Below, piece by piece: positions 24,147 through 61,310 of a stretch of 64,000 bases of DNA. The stretch is from Bacillaceae bacterium. GTDB taxonomy: Bacteria; Bacillota; Bacilli; JACDOE01. Numbering within the stretch: position 1 is the first letter of the stretch; every line of letters starts with the position of its first letter. The DNA lies in contig JACDOE010000005.1 in the NCBI GenBank assembly GCA_017656255.1, forward strand, positions 62,001 to 126,000, written 5' to 3'. Both the position numbers and the translations under genes were made by a program. Below the pieces are notes generated by a model. That model was not told the origin of the DNA. It did not search any database and saw only the letters and a program-made list of their open reading frames with translations.

Positions 24147-24599
24147 ATGGAAGAACGAACCGAAACACCGATCGGAAAGCATGCGATGTATCTCGCGCTC
24201 TTCGGCCCTGAAGAGGCGGATTCATCCTTTCTTCAGAATCTCACTCGGTCGGGATGCCGATTTTGTACCGGAAAAGTCGGTGCCATGGAAATGCATAAAA
24301 TCGTGGCCGCCATTGAAACGGCGGCGAAGAAACACGGTGTGATTCAGTCCGGCATTTACCGGGAAACCCATTCCCTCTACCATGCCATTATGGAAGGGTT
24401 GCATGGGGTCACCCGCGGCCAGCTTCAACTGGGATCCGTATTGCGGACCGTTGGCCTCAATTTTGCAGTTGTACGCGGCCAGCCGTATCCCCGTGACAAT
24501 GAAGGGGAATGGATTGCCGTCGCCCTGTACGGGACCATCGGGGCACCGGTTAAAGGGCTGGAACATGAAGTGCTCGGACTGGGCATCAATCATATCTAA
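24147..24599 (+). CDS. hutP: HutP, hut operon antiterminator
   Basis: The 150-residue protein is full length and matches Hut[57 protein letters not shown] and [14 protein letters not shown]. HutP is an RNA-binding protein that, bound to L-histidine and Mg2+, grips NAG-triplet repeats in the leader between hutP and hutH and stops a terminator from forming. Both the repeats and the terminator are present just downstream (24616-24710). This gene heads the operon hutPHUIG. Confidence 0.95.
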
Positions 24600-24615
24600 A
24601 ATGGAATACATGCCA

Positions 24616-24710
24616 TAGCCCACAGTTGTCAGATACAAGGGGGCTGTATCGAACATAGAGCTCGGCTCGCAATGCCGCAGCTTTATCGGTACAGTCCCCT
24701 TTCATTTTAC
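24616..24710 (+). promoter_or_regulatory. HutP target: NAG triplet repeats and attenuator
   Basis: TAG, CAG, CAG and AAG (24616-24618, 24623-24625, 24630-24632, 24637-24639) occur at 7-base intervals, the NAG-N4 repeat that HutP binds. They overlap the 5' arm of a long hairpin: AAGGGGGCTGTATCGA (24637-24652) against TCGGTACAGTCCCCTT (24686-24701), which ends with a T-rich run (TTCATTTT). Histidine-loaded HutP would cover the repeats and stop the terminator folding. Confidence 0.8.
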
Positions 24711-24769
24711 TCTGGTAAAGGAAGAAAGAATCACCATGGATAACAGCGAGAAAGGTGGCGAGAACGCAT

Positions 24770-26307
24770 ATGATCGAACTGTCGGGTCATACATTGACAC
24801 TGGAAGAAATCTTCGACGTTTTATATCGGGGAGCGAAAGTGACGGTCGCACCCGAAAGCCTGAAGCGCCTGGATGCCGGACGTGACGCGGTGGAAAAGAT
24901 TCTGGCGGAAAACCGGGTGGTGTACGGCATCAACACGGGATTCGGCAAGTTCAGCGATGTGCTCATCGCCCCCGAAGACACGGCACAGTTGCAATATAAC
25001 CTGCTGAGAAGTCATGCCTGTGCGGTGGGGGAGCCTTTTTCCATTCCGGTAAGCCGGGCCATGCTGCTGTTGAGGGCCAATGCCCTGCTAAAAGGGTATT
25101 CCGGTGTACGCAGGCAGGTGGTCAACCAGCTGTTGACCCTGTTGAACCGGGAGATCACGCCGGTCATCCCCAGCCAGGGTTCGCTGGGGGCAAGCGGGGA
25201 TCTGGCGCCGCTGGCCCACCTGGCCCTGACCCTGATCGGCGAAGGGGAAGTCTTTTATCGGGGAAAACGAGTTCCTGCAATGGAAGCATTACGGCAGGAA
25301 GGCATTCAACCGATTGAACTGGCTGCAAAAGAAGGGCTGGCTCTGATCAACGGCACCCAGGCGATGACAGCGGTGGGAGTAGTCACTTATCTGGAAGCAG
25401 AGCAGCTGGCTTATCAGGCGGAATGGATTGCCGCCATGACGATGGAGGGCCTTCATGGCATTGTTGACGCGTTTGATGATAAGATCCACATCGCCAGAGG
25501 TTATCCGGAACAGGTCGAGGTGGCGGAGCGCATGCGGCGGTACCTGGAAGACAGTCACCTCGTTACCCGGCAGGGGGAGCTACGCGTGCAGGATGCCTAT
25601 TCCCTGCGCTGTATTCCCCAGGTTCACGGCGCCGTCTGGCAGGCGCTGGGTTATGCCAGAGATAAACTGACGATTGAGATTAATGCCGCCACCGACAACC
25701 CGCTCATTTTTGATGAAGGACAGCGCGTGATCTCCGGCGGTAACTTTCACGGACAGAGTATGGCTTTTGCCATGGATTTTATGGGGATCGCGGTGGCGGA
25801 ACTGGCCAGTATATCGGAACGCCGGGTAGAGCGGCTGGTCAATCCCCAGCTGAGTGACCTGCCCCCTTTTCTCAGTCCGCAGCCGGGATTGCAATCCGGA
25901 GCGATGATTCTGCAATATGTCGCGGCTTCCCTGGTTTCAGAAAACAAGACCCTGGCTCATCCGGCCAGTGTTGATTCGATCCCGTCTTCCGCGAATCAGG
26001 AGGATCATGTCAGCATGGGGACCACTGCCGCCCGCCATGCTCACGAGATTGTCACGAATACGCGGCGGGTGCTGGCTATCGAGCTGATCTGTGCCATGCA
26101 GGCCGTCGAATACCGCGGCCCAACCAAAATGGCGCGACTTACCCGTCGCCTGCTTAAAAAGGGGAGAGCCGTCGTTGCGCCCATCACGCAGGATCGCCCC
26201 TTTTCACAGGATATTGAAAATCTGTCCCGCTGGATGAAGGAAGACTGGGATCTGTCGCGTGCCTCATCAACCGCCCCATTAAATTCAATTAAAGGAGGAG
26301 ACTGTTC

Positions 26308-26329
<22 letters not shown>
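24770..26329 (+). CDS. hutH: histidine ammonia-lyase
   Basis: The enzyme deaminates L-histidine to urocanate. [17 protein letters not shown] near residue 142 holds the Ala-Ser-Gly that forms the MIO cofactor; [16 protein letters not shown] and [15 protein letters not shown] are also in place. The ATG at 24770 gives 519 residues, near the family's usual ~508; a GTG at 24755 would overlap the ribosome site. The C-terminus runs over the hutU ribosome site and 22 bases into hutU, ending SCHRQNV, which is unusual and may reflect a late frameshift. Confidence 0.93.
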
Positions 26330-30213
<3,884 letters not shown>

Positions 30214-31585: not shown

Positions 31586-31811
31586 CGTTTGAGAAGGAAG
31601 GTCTGGCCTTCCCTCTTCGGCACCTCCAGAATAAGAGTCAGGTCGACTAGAATACCCACATTTTCAAAAAAAGAACATTTTATCACAAAAAATTTCGACA
31701 ACTTCTGTCATTTCATGTAACATTATTGTAGAATGAAAAAAAAGAATGCATTGCTAAGTTTTTCTATCTAATAAACGGCTAATATTATTGATCAAGACGG
31801 GTGGTGATCAT

Positions 31812-34800
31812 GTGGATCGGAAAAGCTTCGCTTTTCAATCACTGGAAAAAGCATCCGCTGATTTTGAACGCATGATGAGCAAAAAATCGTTGAAAAGTAT
31901 ATTTTCCCTGTTTTTTACCCTGTTTATTATATTACTGGTTGTCCGAATCTTTCAACCTGACTTCCGGTTTCACCACTCCTATTATTTGACCCTACATACG
32001 TTGCTGGAGACGTTTACGATTCTCGTATCAGTCATGGTTTTTTCAGTGGGCTGGCATGCTTCTAATGAAAATCGTGCCAGTAATCTGATATTTGTCTCGA
32101 CGGCCTTTCTTGCTGTCGGTATGCTGGATTTTGCCCATACACTCTCCTATCAGGGGATGCCTGACTTTTTTACACCAAGTGACCCCGAGAAAGCGATCAA
32201 TTTCTGGTTGATCGCCAGATTGACGTCGGGACTTGCCCTTCTTGCCATGATTGTCCTCCCCTGGAAACCGATTAAGTCTGAGATAACCCGGTACAGGTTT
32301 CTGTTTTTGAGTCTCGGATTCGGGTTTTCCATGATCACAATCGGAACGTTCTATCCCGATTTGTTTCCCGACACATTTATACCCGGAGAAGGATTGACAC
32401 GGTTCAAAATCGGCATGGAGTATTTGATCTTGTCTATTTTTGTAATAGCGACTGTTATTCTCTTGATCCGCTCTCGAAAACCACAGGAGTATGATGCGGG
32501 TAATTTGCTGGGTGCCACATCGCTCATGGCATTGAGTGAGCTCTGTTTTACCATGTATACCAGCGTCACCGATGCCTACATTTTTCTCGGTCATGTCTAT
32601 AAAGGGATTGCTTTCATATTTTTGTACCGGGCGGTGGTCCTTGATTTTGTTGAGCAAACCCGGCATCGCATGAAATATTCGGAACAGGTTCTTCGCCGTA
32701 ACCAGAACTGGTTTAATACGACCTTGACGAGTATCTATGATGCCGTCATTACAACGGACACAGAGGGAAGAGTCACCTTTATGAATCCGGCAGCAGAACG
32801 GTTGACCGGATGGGCGCTCAAGGAGTGTGCGGGAAGGAGTCTGACCGACATATTTCAAACGGATGATCGTCAGGTGCTGGAAAATATGTGTGAGAAAAAG
32901 TCACAACGGGGCTCATTTATCGAATCCCGTTTAAAGACCCGGTTTGGTTTCTACCTCCCCATTCAACTCAGTGTTGCCCCGATCAAGTTTAACCGGCAAT
33001 CCCTGGGGACGGTAATCGTATTCCGTGACATTTCTGAAAGGAAAGAATCTGAAGAAAGACAGAACCGGCAGGTAGCCATTCTGGAAGCTACCACGGACTT
33101 TGTTGTCACAGCGGATGCAAAGGGGCGCATTCTGTATTTAAATCAGGCGGCTAAAGATTTTCTCGGCGTCGATGAAACGGATGAATCGGACGGTTCAAGT
33201 TTTGATCACAATCATCCGGAATGGGCGGCCCGCATGATTTTTCGCGAGGGATTTCCGATTGCAGCCCGGGAAGGGGTCTGGAGCGGGGAAACGGTGTTCC
33301 TGTCCCATAAGGGGGAAGAGATACCCGTTTCTCAGGTCATTATCGCACATAAAAACAAATCAGGTGAGGTGGAGTTTTATTCCACCATTGCCCGGGATAT
33401 CCGTGATATCAAACAGGCGGAAGAAAAAGAACTGCTGGCCGGCAAAGTGCTGGAGAATATCACGGAGAGTGTAGTAGTCACCGATGCAGACACCCGAATC
33501 ATATCCGTTAATCCGGCATTTACAGAAATTACCGGGTATATGGAAGCGGAAGTGCTGGGGAAAACACCGAAAATCCTCAGTTCCGGACGTCACGGGCCCG
33601 AATTTTATCAGAAAATGTGGTCGGCCATACATCGATCCGGGCGCTGGCAGGGAGAAATCTGGAACCGGCGCAAAGATGGCGAGATTTATCTGGAAGGGAT
33701 TACGATCAGTGTCGTTAAAGATGAACTCGGCAATATCACCCACTATGTCGGGGTGATGAAAGATATCACCCTGCGCAAAAAACTGGAAGATCAGATTCAG
33801 TATCAGGCCTATCACGACACTTTGACCGGACTTCCCAACCGGGTGCTTTTGTATGACCGCCTGAAGCAGGGAATCATTCACGCTCGGCGTCAGAATAAAA
33901 AGCTGGCTGTTATGTTTCTTGACCTGGACCGGTTTAAACGGATTAACGATACACTGGGTCATTCCACCGGCGATCAGCTGTTGAAGGCCGTAGCGGAACG
34001 CCTGTCAGGCTGCATGGGGGAAAGAGATACAGTGGCGCGTCAGGGTGGGGATGAATTTATCATCTTACTGCCTGAAATCGAACATACGGGAGAAGCCGCT
34101 GAATTATCGAGTAAAATTATTGAAACCCTGAAAAAGCCTTTTTTCCTGGAAAACCATGAACTGTTTATTACAACCAGTATCGGAATCAGTATTTATCCGT
34201 CGGACGGGACGAATCTCGAGACCTTGATACAGAATGCGGATACGGCCATGTATCGGGCGAAAGAACAGGGACGTAACAATTTCCAGTTTTTCACCCCGGT
34301 TGCCCATGATCCGAGTCTGGAACGACTGACCCTGGAATCACATATGAGAAGATCCCTGGATAAAGGAGACTTTGAGATTTATTACCAGCCGCGGGTCGAC
34401 TTGAAATCCGGCCGAATCAAGGGAATGGAAGCATTGGTCCGCTGGTATCATCCGGAACTGGGTTTGCTTATGCCGGATAAATTTATTCCACTGGCGGAAG
34501 AGACGGGGTTAATCATCCCTCTGGGTGAGAAAGTTCTGCGAGAGGCGTGCCGGCAAAACAGGGAATGGCAGCGGGACGGCTATCCTGATTTGCAGGTCGC
34601 GGTCAATTTATCCATGCTTCAGTTTAAACAGCCGGATCTGGCGGAAATGATCGAGTCAGTACTGGTGGATACCGGTCTCGATCCCGGTTGTCTGGAACTG
34701 GAAATCACCGAGAGTATTGTGATGAACAATCCCGATGTCACACTGAATACACTGAACAAATTAAAAATGATGGGGGTTAAAATCGCACTTGATGATTTTG

Positions 34801-35114
34801 GAACCGGCTATTCTTCTCTCAATTATCTGAAACGGTTTCCCATCGATACCTTGAAAATCGACAGATCTTTTGTACAGGATGTGACGGCCAACCAGGATGA
34901 CCGGGCGATTGTAACTGCGATGATCAATCTCGCACACAGTCTTCAGCTCAAAGTTGTGGCCGAAGGTGTGGAAACGGAAGAGCAACTGCTTTTACTTAAC
35001 GAATACCACTGTGATGAAATACAGGGTTATTTCTGCAGTCATCCCCTTCCGGCTGATCAATTCAGCCAGTTGATTCTGGACAGGGAAGGGCAGATGGAGT
35101 GTCTGGACGGATAA
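31812..35114 (+). CDS. MASE3-PAS-GGDEF-EAL cyclic-di-GMP enzyme
   Basis: The 1100-residue protein has a MASE3-type membrane sensor (about seven helices, residues 30-280), three PAS domains (first YDAVITTDTEGRVTFMN; second ATTDFVVTADAKGRILYLN; third SVVVTDADTRIISVNPAF), a GGDEF domain with intact GGDEF but no RxxD inhibitory site upstream (GERD there), and an EAL domain with GMEALVRW and LDDFGTGYSSLNYLK. It may both make and break c-di-GMP. Start at GTG 31812 after GGGTGGTGATC; a TTG at 31788 is the other choice. Paralogous to the next gene. Confidence 0.85.
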   Translation: MDRKSFAFQSLEKASADFERMMSKKSLKSIFSLFFTLFIILLVVRIFQPDFRFHHSYYLTLHTLLETFTILVSVMVFSVGWHASNENRASNLIFVSTAFLAVGMLDFAHTLSYQGMPDFFTPSDPEKAINFWLIARLTSGLALLAMIVLPWKPIKSEITRYRFLFLSLGFGFSMITIGTFYPDLFPDTFIPGEGLTRFKIGMEYLILSIFVIATVILLIRSRKPQEYDAGNLLGATSLMALSELCFTMYTSVTDAYIFLGHVYKGIAFIFLYRAVVLDFVEQTRHRMKYSEQVLRRNQNWFNTTLTSIYDAVITTDTEGRVTFMNPAAERLTGWALKECAGRSLTDIFQTDDRQVLENMCEKKSQRGSFIESRLKTRFGFYLPIQLSVAPIKFNRQSLGTVIVFRDISERKESEERQNRQVAILEATTDFVVTADAKGRILYLNQAAKDFLGVDETDESDGSSFDHNHPEWAARMIFREGFPIAAREGVWSGETVFLSHKGEEIPVSQVIIAHKNKSGEVEFYSTIARDIRDIKQAEEKELLAGKVLENITESVVVTDADTRIISVNPAFTEITGYMEAEVLGKTPKILSSGRHGPEFYQKMWSAIHRSGRWQGEIWNRRKDGEIYLEGITISVVKDELGNITHYVGVMKDITLRKKLEDQIQYQAYHDTLTGLPNRVLLYDRLKQGIIHARRQNKKLAVMFLDLDRFKRINDTLGHSTGDQLLKAVAERLSGCMGERDTVARQGGDEFIILLPEIEHTGEAAELSSKIIETLKKPFFLENHELFITTSIGISIYPSDGTNLETLIQNADTAMYRAKEQGRNNFQFFTPVAHDPSLERLTLESHMRRSLDKGDFEIYYQPRVDLKSGRIKGMEALVRWYHPELGLLMPDKFIPLAEETGLIIPLGEKVLREACRQNREWQRDGYPDLQVAVNLSMLQFKQPDLAEMIESVLVDTGLDPGCLELEITESIVMNNPDVTLNTLNKLKMMGVKIALDDFGTGYSSLNYLKRFPIDTLKIDRSFVQDVTANQDDRAIVTAMINLAHSLQLKVVAEGVETEEQLLLLNEYHCDEIQGYFCSHPLPADQFSQLILDREGQMECLDG

Positions 35115-35189
35115 CACACCGGGAAACTTGTCGTTTCATAGCCCCCATGTCAGTGGGGCTCTATTTTTTCTCTTTTGAGGTGGGATGTC

Positions 35190-37844
35190 ATGAATCGCTA
35201 TTATTCAGAGGTTGTCCGTCGCCTGCTTGGGATTCAGGAAAACGAGTCCCCTCCCAAGACGTTTAATGGTATGTTTGCCGTTCTACTTCTTCTGGCTGTC
35301 ATTCAACTGGTTCTGATATTCATTAAACCTGAGTGGCGCGTACCGGAAAGTATCCATCGATCGATTCACCTCTTGTTTAGCAACTATGTGGTGATTGTTT
35401 CATTTCTTGTTTTTATTCTGGGATGGAACAGTGATCATAAGAAACCGGATCGAAACCTGTCCATTCTGGCCGGTGCCTACCTGGGGGCAGGGTTGATCAA
35501 TCTGGTCAATCTTTTGGCCGGGCAGGGAATTCCGATGTTTGCCATACTGGATCGGGAATGGCAGAATTTTGTTTACGAGAGTGCCAGCCTCCTCCTGATC
35601 CAGATCGCTCTGCTTCTGGTTGCGGTGTTACCGTTACAGCCCCATTCGTTCAGACGGCGAATTTATCTGACGGCCGTTCTTGTTTTTACCGGAGGGGTGA
35701 TCGGAGCAGGGCTGGGTAACGCATGGTTTCAAATAGAAACAGGGGAAACCGCGATACAATCGGTCATGACCATCCTTCTTTCAGTGACTGCTGTTTTTCT
35801 GTATCACCGTTATCGCGGGTCACGACCTTTTGAGAGAGGCTATCTGCTTGCCGTTGTTTTATTCGGGATGCTGAGTCAGATCAGTTTCATCTACTCCGTT
35901 GCAGAGGATGATATATTCCGGGGAACCGGATATATCTATCAAATGATTGCATCGGCCCTGATATTGCAGGGGGTTATCTATGAAAATATGCTGAAGCCTT
36001 TTCGGCGTCTGCAAAAATCGGAACAGATATTAAGCAAGAGTAAAAACTGGCTGACCTCCATATTAAAAAGTGTCTATGACGGTGTTGTGATAACGGATCG
36101 GAACGGGAAAATTACCTTTATGAACCGAAATGCGGAGAAAATAACGGGCTGGACCTGGCCGGAGGCTTCGGGCCAATCCGTTATGAAAGTGTTTCAAGTG
36201 ACGGAAGGTGAACATCCTGTTTCGAAAGTGATGCAAGATGTGAATGAGAGTGGATTTATCAGCGAGGTGAAAATTCGGGATCGGACAGGCCGGGAACGTT
36301 ATATTCAGAGCAGTGCCACCCTGATTCGGGAAAATCAGGAGGAACAGACCGGCGTTATTTTTATCTTTCGGGATATCACGGTTCGAAAAAAGACAGAAGA
36401 AAAGACACAGCGGTTGATTGCCATTCTGGAAGCGACATCAGACTATGTGGCGACCATGGATGCCAGTGGCAGGATATTGTATCTGAACAAGGCGGCCCGG
36501 GAATTTTTAGGGGTAAGCGGTTCAGAAGGTCTGTCTATCAACGATATTTCATATATTTTTTCTGAAACAGAGCGGGAAAACATCCTGAAAACGGGGCTGG
36601 GAGAGGCAGCACAAAAAGGGGTATGGAAAGGTGAAACGGTCTTTTTTAACCGGGATGGCCAGAAAATACCCGTTTCCCAGGTGATCATCGCACATCCGGG
36701 CACCACGGGAGACGTCGCCTATTATTCGACGATTGCCCGGGACATTCGTGACCTGAAAGAGGCGGAGGAGAGGTTGCTTTTTTCCGCCACGGTTTATGAC
36801 AATATATCAGAAGGCGTTCTGATCACCGATAAACATAATAAAATACTGTCGGTGAATCCGGCGTTTACACGTATTACCGGCTACCGGGAAGAGGAAGTAA
36901 TCGGCGAGGATCCCGGTGTGTTAAGCTCCGGCAAACATGACCGGAATTTCTATGAGAAAATGTGGTCGGAAGTGATGTCAGAAGGTAAATGGAAAGGAGA
37001 AATCTGGAACCGCCACCGGGATGGGACACTCTTTCTCGAAGAGATCAGTATTAAGGCGATTTATGATGATCAGGGCAATATCATTCATTATGTGGGCCTG
37101 TTCAAGGATATCACGGAACAAAAGAAAACCGAAGAATTGTTGAAAAAATCGGACCGGCTGGCGGTGGCCGGGCAACTGGCGGCGGGAATCGCCCACGAGA
37201 TCCGAAATCCGTTGACGTCGATTCGCGGGTTCATTCAATTCATGCAAATGAATTCTGAAAAAGAAAATCAATATTTTGATATCATCCTGACTGAACTGGA
37301 CCGAATCAATGAAATCGTCAGTGAACTGCTTGTATTGGCCCGACCACAGGCCGTCCATTTTCAGAAGCATGACATGAAGGTGCTGATTGAGGAAGTGGTC
37401 ACCCTTTTTCAAAGCCATGCTGTGCTCAACAATGTACAGATCATCAGTCGGATCGAACCCGGATTACCCGGTGTCTATTGTGAGAAAAACCAGTTAAAAC
37501 AGGTGTTGATCAATCTGTTGAAGAATGCACTGGAATCGATGCCCGATGGTGGAAAAGTGAGCATTGATGCCTCTGTCAGAGGGGACGAATTACGGGTCCG
37601 GATCACGGATGAAGGGGTGGGTATCAAGAAAGAACACCTGCCCCGGCTTGGAGAACCGTTTTACAGTACAAAGGCGGACGGTACCGGTCTGGGACTGATG
37701 ATCAGCCAGAAAATTATCGAAGATCATCACGGTAGAATTGAGATCTCCAGCGAGGAAGGGAAAGGCACCACCGTGGATGTCGTACTTCCGTTATCAACAT
37801 CTCTGGAGAAAAGCACTGAAAACCGGGGGGCGCGGCTAGAGTGA
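35190..37844 (+). CDS. MASE3-PAS histidine kinase
   Basis: The 884-residue protein has the same MASE3 sensor and PAS domains as the gene before it, but ends in a HisKA dimerisation domain (LAAGIAHEIRNPLTSIRGF, phosphorylated His) and an ATPase (NLLKNALESMPDGGKVSI, GVGIKKEHLPRLGEPFYSTKADGTGLGL, HHGRIEISSEEG). The kinase module is like the sporulation-type KinA/KinE group. GAGGTGGG precedes the ATG at 35190. No response regulator is encoded beside it. Its 3' end overlaps the convergent pucR-type gene by 9 bases. Confidence 0.87.
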   Translation: MNRYYSEVVRRLLGIQENESPPKTFNGMFAVLLLLAVIQLVLIFIKPEWRVPESIHRSIHLLFSNYVVIVSFLVFILGWNSDHKKPDRNLSILAGAYLGAGLINLVNLLAGQGIPMFAILDREWQNFVYESASLLLIQIALLLVAVLPLQPHSFRRRIYLTAVLVFTGGVIGAGLGNAWFQIETGETAIQSVMTILLSVTAVFLYHRYRGSRPFERGYLLAVVLFGMLSQISFIYSVAEDDIFRGTGYIYQMIASALILQGVIYENMLKPFRRLQKSEQILSKSKNWLTSILKSVYDGVVITDRNGKITFMNRNAEKITGWTWPEASGQSVMKVFQVTEGEHPVSKVMQDVNESGFISEVKIRDRTGRERYIQSSATLIRENQEEQTGVIFIFRDITVRKKTEEKTQRLIAILEATSDYVATMDASGRILYLNKAAREFLGVSGSEGLSINDISYIFSETERENILKTGLGEAAQKGVWKGETVFFNRDGQKIPVSQVIIAHPGTTGDVAYYSTIARDIRDLKEAEERLLFSATVYDNISEGVLITDKHNKILSVNPAFTRITGYREEEVIGEDPGVLSSGKHDRNFYEKMWSEVMSEGKWKGEIWNRHRDGTLFLEEISIKAIYDDQGNIIHYVGLFKDITEQKKTEELLKKSDRLAVAGQLAAGIAHEIRNPLTSIRGFIQFMQMNSEKENQYFDIILTELDRINEIVSELLVLARPQAVHFQKHDMKVLIEEVVTLFQSHAVLNNVQIISRIEPGLPGVYCEKNQLKQVLINLLKNALESMPDGGKVSIDASVRGDELRVRITDEGVGIKKEHLPRLGEPFYSTKADGTGLGLMISQKIIEDHHGRIEISSEEGKGTTVDVVLPLSTSLEKSTENRGARLE

Positions 37845-60835: not shown

Positions 60836-60920
60836 GGTCCTCTTTCTTTTATTTTATAACAAAACAGTGTGTGTGCCGACTCCCTGACTCTAACCATATC
60901 ATGAGACTGGGGAGGACATG

Positions 60921-61310
60921 ATGGATTCTCCGACAATCTTTCTGGTTGAAGACCATTGTGACAATGGAAAACTGTTTAAACAGTACCTGGAATGGGAAGG
61001 GTTCAGAACAATCTGTGTGCACCAGGGCAGCGAGGTCATGTCAAAACTGAACCAGATTCGTCCGTCACTTATCCTGATGGATATCTTAATGCCGGAACAA
61101 AATGGCCTGGACATTGTCAAAGAATTAAAGCAACATCCGGAATTCCATCACATCCCGGTGGTGGCTTTTTCAGCTCTGTCTTCTGCAGATGACATTGAGA
61201 AAGCCCTGGCAGCCGGATGTGACGGATATATTACCAAACCGGTACGATTGCCGGAACTGGTGTCGAGGATTAAAGAATTCGTCCGTATTCCTGAAGATTC
61301 AAGCAGCTGA
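60921..61310 (+). CDS. single-domain response regulator (CheY-like)
   Basis: The 129-residue receiver domain has the acidic pair in IFLVEDHCDNG, the phospho-acceptor Asp in LILMDILMPEQNG, a Ser in place of Thr (VAFSALSS) and the Lys in GYITKPVRLPE. There is no output domain, so it passes a phosphate or acts by binding a partner. Its kinase is not beside it; the orphan kinase at 35.2 kb is a possibility. GGGGAGG lies before ATG 60921. Confidence 0.83.
   Translation: MDSPTIFLVEDHCDNGKLFKQYLEWEGFRTICVHQGSEVMSKLNQIRPSLILMDILMPEQNGLDIVKELKQHPEFHHIPVVAFSALSSADDIEKALAAGCDGYITKPVRLPELVSRIKEFVRIPEDSSS

Follow-up and report, generated by a model that had tools for sequence, protein, structure and literature searches.

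Two neighbouring genes that begin with the same kind of sensor and end in different outputs raise the question of whether both outputs still answer to one signal. Such a pair lies in a 64,000-nt stretch, hereafter the window, of the genome of a Bacillaceae bacterium (GTDB lineage Bacteria; Bacillota; Bacilli; JACDOE01; NCBI GenBank assembly GCA_017656255.1, contig JACDOE010000005.1, positions 62,001 to 126,000 of the forward strand, read 5′ to 3′). We call the genes D and K. An initial annotation had proposed that a shared MASE3 membrane sensor feeds one signal through D into cyclic diguanylate (c-di-GMP) and through K into a phosphorelay, possibly that of sporulation. Our analysis indicates that D and K are domain-shuffled sensor paralogues. 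Judged by its sequence, K is a chimera, described here as new, in which the sensor half of a GGDEF-EAL-type protein has been joined to the core of a PAS kinase. At the membrane the two proteins probably do not read the same signal; a shared input in the cytoplasm is possible.

The annotated architecture held. Pfam placed MASE3 (PF17159) above its cut-off of 31 bits in both products (232.3 bits in D and 71.4 bits in K), each followed by three PAS domains, and assigned GGDEF and EAL domains to the end of D and HisKA and HATPase_c domains to the end of K, confirming the swapped outputs. No MASE3 place other than these two was found in the genome. The open frame of D extends over 31788-35114 from a TTG at 31788, with an in-frame GTG at 31812, downstream of a GGTGGTG-like ribosome site, as the probably better start. 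That of K extends over 35175-37844 from a TTG at 35175, with the ATG at 35190, preceded by GAGGTGG, as the likelier start. Residues are numbered from TTG 31788 in D and from TTG 35175 in K.

An alignment of the two proteins supported the common origin of the sensor halves that had been annotated: BLASTP aligned 713 positions (E = 2e-140), ∼630 of which fall in the sensor half (K residues 27-657). Identity increases from 25% in MASE3 (52/207) through PAS1 (38/107) and PAS2 (60/113) to 56% in PAS3 (60/107). The motifs quoted in the initial annotation as near-identical between the genes are exact, and all four lie in PAS2, none of them in MASE3. Because a PAS3 of this kind is common to other PAS-GGDEF-EAL proteins, which match about equally (∼50-60%), the likeness of the two PAS3 domains alone is weak evidence, and the case for shared descent is carried by the likeness of PAS2 together with the common domain order. 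Among the loci compared at that stage, a PAS2 of the D/K kind (>45% identity) was present only in D, K and the proteins of genomes G115 and G005 (other genomes and their loci are designated by our own G and L numbers). Outside this genome, the G115 protein is the nearest relative of D that was found; by identity D is closer to it than to K in MASE3, PAS1 and PAS3, but not in PAS2. In a PAS1 tree, D, K, G081 and G005 formed a starred clade (100/97). A recent tandem duplication of D and K was considered and not borne out, identity and trees being ambiguous. The end branch of K was 2.3 to 2.5 times as long as that of D in two concatenated trees, which makes the placement of K unsafe, and the trees accommodate a split of K either before or after D and G115 parted.

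The joint between the two halves of K is sharp. The 13 best non-self rows for its PAS3 correspond to 10 genes, nine of which carry a GGDEF domain while that of G081 is cut by the contig end inside GGDEF; the first of these matches is D. In a tree of 57 PAS domains, K PAS3 was the sole kinase-pattern row in a branch of 27 rows (83/85, not starred), ten of which were at first unclassified, with no kinase pattern in any of the ten. The K core, in which the H-box and the N, G1, F and G2 boxes were all located, gave six PAS kinases as its best matches (52.5-55.8% identity), none of them among the MASE3 places of the class genomes. Along the whole of K, six such kinases reached 52-56% in the core and 20-35% in the PAS domains, except for one 33-residue stretch at 42%. 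With PAS3 matching GGDEF genes and the core matching PAS kinases, the swap is therefore placed near K residue 651, and the pattern of matches suggests that it ran from c-di-GMP enzyme to kinase. The alternative that MASE3 was added to an old PAS-PAS-PAS kinase to give K was rejected because the PAS kinase of G105 (L184), which aligns with K from PAS1 to the core, is only 22-27% identical in PAS1 and PAS3, while its core matches at 52%; this kinase gave no match to K PAS2 at E 0.01.

Table 1. Features of the D/K locus, in coordinates of the window.
Feature	Position	Strand	Basis or remark
Gene D, MASE3-PAS1-PAS2-PAS3-GGDEF-EAL	31812..35114	+	ORF (open reading frame) listing, Pfam, start region
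MASE3 of D	31977..32645	+	Pfam, conserved-residue comparison, AlphaFold model
PAS2 of D, with motifs quoted in the initial annotation	33084..33422	+	Pfam and alignment
PAS3 of D, with W611 and N626	33447..33767	+	PDB matches; D placed through a gap-free alignment with K
GGDEF domain of D, signature intact, R of the I-site absent (GxxD)	33807..34280	+	Pfam and motif
EAL domain of D	34344..35045	+	Pfam and motifs EAL, N, E, DD, K, E, Q
Terminator-like hairpin between D and K, six pairs, then T-run CTCTATTTTTT	35143..35158	+	Hairpin scan
Gene K, MASE3-PAS1-PAS2-PAS3-HisKA-HATPase_c	35190..37844	+	ORF listing, Pfam, start region
MASE3 of K	35361..35999	+	Pfam, alignment, AlphaFold, conserved-residue comparison
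PAS2 of K, with motifs quoted in the initial annotation	36420..36767	+	Pfam and alignment
PAS3 of K, with W597 and N612	36810..37118	+	Alignment with FAD (flavin adenine dinucleotide) determinants
Putative splice point, around K residue 651	37119..37169	+	GGDEF-EAL-type PAS3 upstream, PAS-kinase-type core downstream
HisKA and HATPase_c core of K	37170..37796	+	H-box HEIRNPLTSIRGFIQF, His residue 674 at nt 37194; TSGFQF

Does the membrane sensor still do the same work in both proteins? Across 37 well-scoring MASE3 domains an H, E, H, R, K and H are conspicuous for their conservation, and D has every one of them, retaining H70, E74, W89, H117, R144, T204, K207, D262, H269 and K272. At the positions of E74, H117, R144 and H269, D keeps all four residues and K none (S69, N112, L139 and Y253); this four-residue pattern was derived here and does not belong to the Pfam definition of MASE3. 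All four are present in 18 of the 21 other kinase-type MASE3 proteins and three of the four in the remaining 3, the figure of 21 being a pattern count because the output types of the 97 other MASE3 rows were set by sequence patterns, with Pfam for ten proteins only. K also lacks 12 residues opposite D residues ∼188-199, where the alignment, and hence the fate of K207 in K, is unsure. In Tajima relative-rate counts the MASE3 domain of K had changed faster than that of D with G115 (61:22), G040 (51:13) and G081 (64:19) as outgroups, whereas the same test gave no significant rate excess in the PAS domains; the contrast between MASE3 and PAS had Fisher p values of 0.036 (G115), 0.014 (G040), 0.030 (G081) and 0.72 (G005). 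Since K has lost key residues of MASE3, a membrane signal common to D and K is improbable.

The AlphaFold models of MASE3 have eight helices each (predicted local distance difference test, pLDDT, of 94.7 for D and 89.0 for K), and from these models the fold of K MASE3 seems to stand while residues with a probable role in the signal are gone. The 50 PDB matches listed for each model are G-protein-coupled receptors (GPCRs) or receptors of GPCR fold. Among these, the best had Z 11.8 for D (root-mean-square deviation 4.8, 208 aligned) and Z 13.2 for K (5.0, 223 aligned), and Foldseek template-modelling (TM) scores were low, 0.30 to 0.45. MASE3 may thus be a GPCR-like bundle; we claim only an eight-helix domain, because a Z under ∼13 may reflect a common helical-bundle arrangement. 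A sequence-profile search found no solved MASE3 structure (best E 0.027), and a literature search returned no relevant paper on MASE3 or the MASE3 domain.

A candidate for an input common to both proteins is PAS3. Passages of PMC10468136 and PMC9668731 name a Trp of helix Fα and an Asn as FAD determinants in PAS domains of the MmoS/NifL type, and both residues are present in D (W611, N626) and in K (W597, N612). Both PAS3 domains matched 3ewk (MmoS) best in the PDB, with 2gj3 (NifL) among the next, and both structures appear as FAD binders in a list in PMC8694187. A shared cytoplasmic redox input through PAS3 is therefore possible. A flavin-binding role was also considered for PAS2, for which MmoS is likewise the nearest PDB entry, and was rejected: in a hand alignment the Trp of helix Fα is replaced by Phe in D and Leu in K.

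On the output side of D, the GGDEF domain scored 189.6 bits with its signature at residue 753, and the EAL domain 263.8 bits with the catalytic motifs EAL, N, E, DD, K, E and Q all located. D reads G-E-R-D-TVARQ-GGDEF: the D of the inhibitory RxxD site (I-site) is present and its R is missing, as the initial annotation had noted. The I-site is inhibitory and dispensable for diguanylate cyclase activity. Its loss is not unusual, because 15 of the 26 GGDEF motifs of the MASE3 set, D included, are without RxxD and 11 have it. D is a putative enzyme that may make c-di-GMP, break it or both.

On the output side of K, the core points towards sporulation. Its best match among PDB chains was Sporulation kinase B (3d36, 169.5 bits), followed by ZraS (158.5 bits). 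The predicted HisKA specificity residues of K read TSGFQF, and the same offsets on 3d36 give TAGFQL. Table 1 of PMC6136694 gives the predicted specificity residues as TAGFQL for KinA and KinE, TVGFQL for KinB, TSGFQI for KinC and TGGFQL for KinD, and the same source reports TTGFQ[M/L/F] in six of seven D. acetoxidans orphan kinases and TAAFEL in the seventh; K fits the pattern TxGFQ[L/I/M/F]. Two of the six kinases with a readable H-box in the 1.264 Mb of genome read fit this pattern, K and one in L243. K is also an orphan, the neighbours run (PucR, PALP, M24 peptidase and LysM-CAP) including no two-component gene, and orphan status together with a PAS domain is given as a criterion for a phosphorelay kinase in PMC6136694. 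The genome further encodes Spo0A (Spo0A_C, 155.6 bits) and Spo0B (36.6 bits, cut-off 27), the latter flanked by genes that by eye are L27 and Obg, an order described as the Spo0B neighbourhood in PMC6136694. These observations lend substance to the sporulation link that had been raised as a possibility, and K is likely, though unproven, a kinase of the Spo0 phosphorelay. The L243 kinase of the same genome (G000, contig C1, 16065-17321) has specificity residues of the sporulation type, TSGFQL. A stand-alone receiver of 130 residues lies 23 kb downstream of the pair (window 60918-61310) and was identified as neither Spo0F nor CheY.

We propose that a D-like MASE3-PAS-PAS-PAS-GGDEF-EAL gene was copied to give the ancestor of K, and that in this copy the core of a Bacillus-type PAS sporulation kinase took the place of the GGDEF-EAL end, directly behind PAS3. 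D would make and/or break c-di-GMP, and K would autophosphorylate and most likely feed the Spo0F-Spo0B-Spo0A phosphorelay. The membrane signal would no longer be common, D having retained the polar residues of MASE3 and K having lost them with the fold kept; the cytoplasmic part, above all PAS3 with its FAD-type residues, may still be. The pair would then couple c-di-GMP to the sporulation decision through a common cytoplasmic, possibly redox, input, and the membrane input would be private to D or altered in K. Taken as a whole, from copying and output swap to separate membrane signals, a phosphorelay role for K and a shared redox input at PAS3, we rate this account as evenly balanced between right and wrong. 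The sequence itself establishes the domain architecture, the shared descent, the splice point, the lost residues and the specificity residues, whereas the enzyme activities, FAD, the ligand, the target of the phosphorelay and the coupling are deduced. The proposal of the initial annotation that one signal reaches both outputs is doubtful at the membrane, where K has none of the four residues and a faster-changing MASE3, and may hold for a cytoplasmic input through PAS2 and PAS3.

Several observations weigh against our account. One tree grouped D with K (75/81) and another D with G115 (60/50), and no alternative was rejected. With G005 as outgroup the rate excess of K MASE3 was not significant (37:23, p 0.07), and should D be more closely related to G115, G081 and G040 than to K, these three would fail as outgroups and leave only the contrast between MASE3 and PAS to count. 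Nor is the loss of MASE3 residues unique to K: of the 97 other MASE3 domains, whatever their output, all four residues are present in 50 and none in 5, and the MASE3 proteins of family f4 have also lost the E and H269. (Family f4, e.g. L086, L090 and L107-L111, is a common MASE3-GGDEF-EAL group whose GGDEF lacks the signature, and its loss parallels that of K.) Seven relatives compared for PAS3 keep the Trp in 6/7 and the Asn in 2/7, for which reason FAD binding is a lead and not a proof. K stays below the cut-off for KinD (NF053867; 216.4 against 775 bits). D and K are codirectional, their open frames 60 bases apart (35115-35174), and the terminator-like hairpin found there weakens the view of a single operon; transcripts of K may arise by read-through or start at an unseen promoter of its own. 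As the region holds 12 such hairpin sites against a mean of 7.8 (standard deviation 2.8) in shuffles, with a hairpin z of -1.49, statistical support is weak and a terminator role is only suggestive.

The hairpin counts in favour of a rival reading in which D and K work independently, the MASE3 of K being a drifting membrane anchor, K driven by PAS alone and adjacency only the trace of a duplication. The conserved residues lost from K within a preserved fold would suit such an anchor, as would the lack of an adjoining K beside the closest D relative, in G115; yet eight intact predicted helices exceed the need of a bare anchor, and the two genes remain adjacent and codirectional, and we find independence unlikely, though tenable. 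That both MASE3 domains sense one membrane signal, forked into c-di-GMP and a phosphorelay, is what two members of one domain family, side by side as the genome's only MASE3 genes, would first suggest. It is plausible in general because a MASE3 pair in G707 keeps the conserved residues in both sensors, which are identical at 106/243 positions; for D and K we consider it distinctly unlikely, given that K has 0/4 of the E, H, R and H that D has, that MASE3 is the least alike of their shared domains and that K MASE3 changed faster relative to three of four outgroups. K could instead be a conventional kinase whose partner is not Spo0F but another regulator, with its gene at a different site. AtoS is its strongest NCBIfam model (391.8 bits, under the cut-off of 646), and the 1.264 Mb read, out of 3.41 Mb, yielded no recognisable Spo0F, the Spo0F model identifying none of three short receiver proteins there; both facts also count against a phosphorelay role. 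The TSGFQF residues, the best PDB match to Sporulation kinase B and the lack of any other two-component gene among the neighbours run make this unlikely in our view. Finally, K might act as a pseudo-receptor whose degenerate MASE3 has ceased to bind the ligand and pairs with the MASE3 and PAS domains of D, so that the membrane signal of D and a common flavin redox state would jointly set c-di-GMP and Spo0A phosphorylation. We hold this to be very improbable; if true, it would tie second-messenger signalling directly, at the molecular level, to the decision to sporulate.

Around the pair, a divergent LysM-CAP protein gene lies upstream, and downstream, on the minus strand, a convergent gene for a PucR-type regulator shares nine bases with the end of K, tail to tail (37836-37844). 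Further upstream (window 24147-27972), HutP, an aromatic amino acid lyase of the histidine-ammonia-lyase type and urocanase stand in a row, a histidine-use cluster.

Relatives were sought in a class set of 398 genomes, in which the family and order of this genome are represented by its own genome alone, and in 380 further genomes of a phylum scan, from which 20 hand-picked stretches were taken; the total of 778 was counted by genome numbering. In the class genomes 85 of 93 MASE3 places were examined, the remaining eight being seven of family f4 and one G081 contig-end piece. The first conservation table used 73 of the 85 (score at least 45, stretch over 200) and the wider one 99 of 103 proteins (85 plus 18; match and more than 150 aligned residues). 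Structure alignments comprised 66 rows (score over 100, under 75% mutual identity), one row being omitted as it had no usable coordinates. No second instance of the K architecture was found in the class set. At E 1e-95, with two candidates per genome scored, matches to K that include MASE3 were limited to D and the GGDEF-type proteins of G115 and G005, and the remaining matches were PAS kinases starting at PAS1 or later. Within the family of G115 (11 genomes) only G115 matched the K sensor half at E 1e-40, and two of the four genomes in the family of G081 matched it, in the PAS parts only.

The search for the same pair elsewhere, which the initial annotation had suggested, gave neighbouring MASE3 genes in 5 of the 778 genomes (G059, G228, G063, G707 and the present one), a count in which the G063 pair includes one 28.5-bit piece under the Pfam cut-off and from which split assemblies can hide further pairs. 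Outputs are swapped in three of the five, and among these three the present genome alone has one degenerate sensor; in G059, G228 and G707 both copies retain the four residues. In G059 (L047 5389-10057) the tandem genes are both MASE3-GGDEF-EAL with a GGDEF lacking the signature, probably phosphodiesterases. In G063 (L049 4958-8822) there are two tandem MASE3 kinases, one of which is broken into two frames, of 204 residues (sensor) and 462 residues (PAS kinase). The D relative of G005 (L075 4943-7537) ends soon after GGDEF (864 residues, no recognised EAL) and is possibly a shortened gene.

If our account is right, the locus is a legible case of re-wiring, with one ancestral sensor half, a sharp splice after PAS3, a c-di-GMP output against a likely Spo0 output and a lopsided decay of MASE3. 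The contrast between D and K would mark E, H, R and H as the residues through which to find the ligand of MASE3. A passage of PMC5552956 presents the signal of KinA as an open question, and flavin redox is a testable guess for what a sporulation kinase senses.

Among the systems with which the pair can be compared, the G115 protein (L055) has the same MASE3-PAS-PAS-PAS-GGDEF-EAL order as D, is 53.7% identical over 1069 residues and keeps the MASE3 residues; unlike D, it has RxxD and no kinase twin, and adjoins CheA, CheY and receptor-like genes (named by eye). Unrelated neighbours in relatives, which the initial annotation had named as a finding that would speak against it, are thus present to the extent that this relative sits beside chemotaxis-like genes without a K. 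The G707 pair (L159 4885-8672) likewise consists of adjacent, codirectional genes, for a kinase-like MASE3-PAS-HATPase and a MASE3-GAF-GGDEF protein; it differs in its reverse order, in PAS against GAF, in having the conserved residues in both sensors and in belonging to a different family of the phylum. Its kinase-like frame lacks any ATG, GTG or TTG codon ahead of residue 91. In G228 (L048 5653-11655) a MASE3-PAS-SpoIIE-type phosphatase, a third kind of output, is encoded near a MASE3-PAS-GGDEF-EAL protein; here ∼1.5 kb containing a single open frame on the opposite strand separates the genes, and there is no kinase. The NCBIfam model MASE3_PAS_HK (NF047874) resembles K in uniting a histidine kinase core with MASE3 and PAS in a single protein; K scores 216 bits against its cut-off of 560 and differs in its three PAS domains of the GGDEF-EAL-linked type and in its lost MASE3 residues. 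With KinA-KinE of Bacillus and Sporulation kinase B (3d36), K has in common the core, the specificity residues (compare TSGFQI of KinC, as tabulated in PMC6136694) and orphan status with PAS domains, and it is set apart from them by a sensor half that is a MASE3-PAS module of apparent c-di-GMP-enzyme origin.

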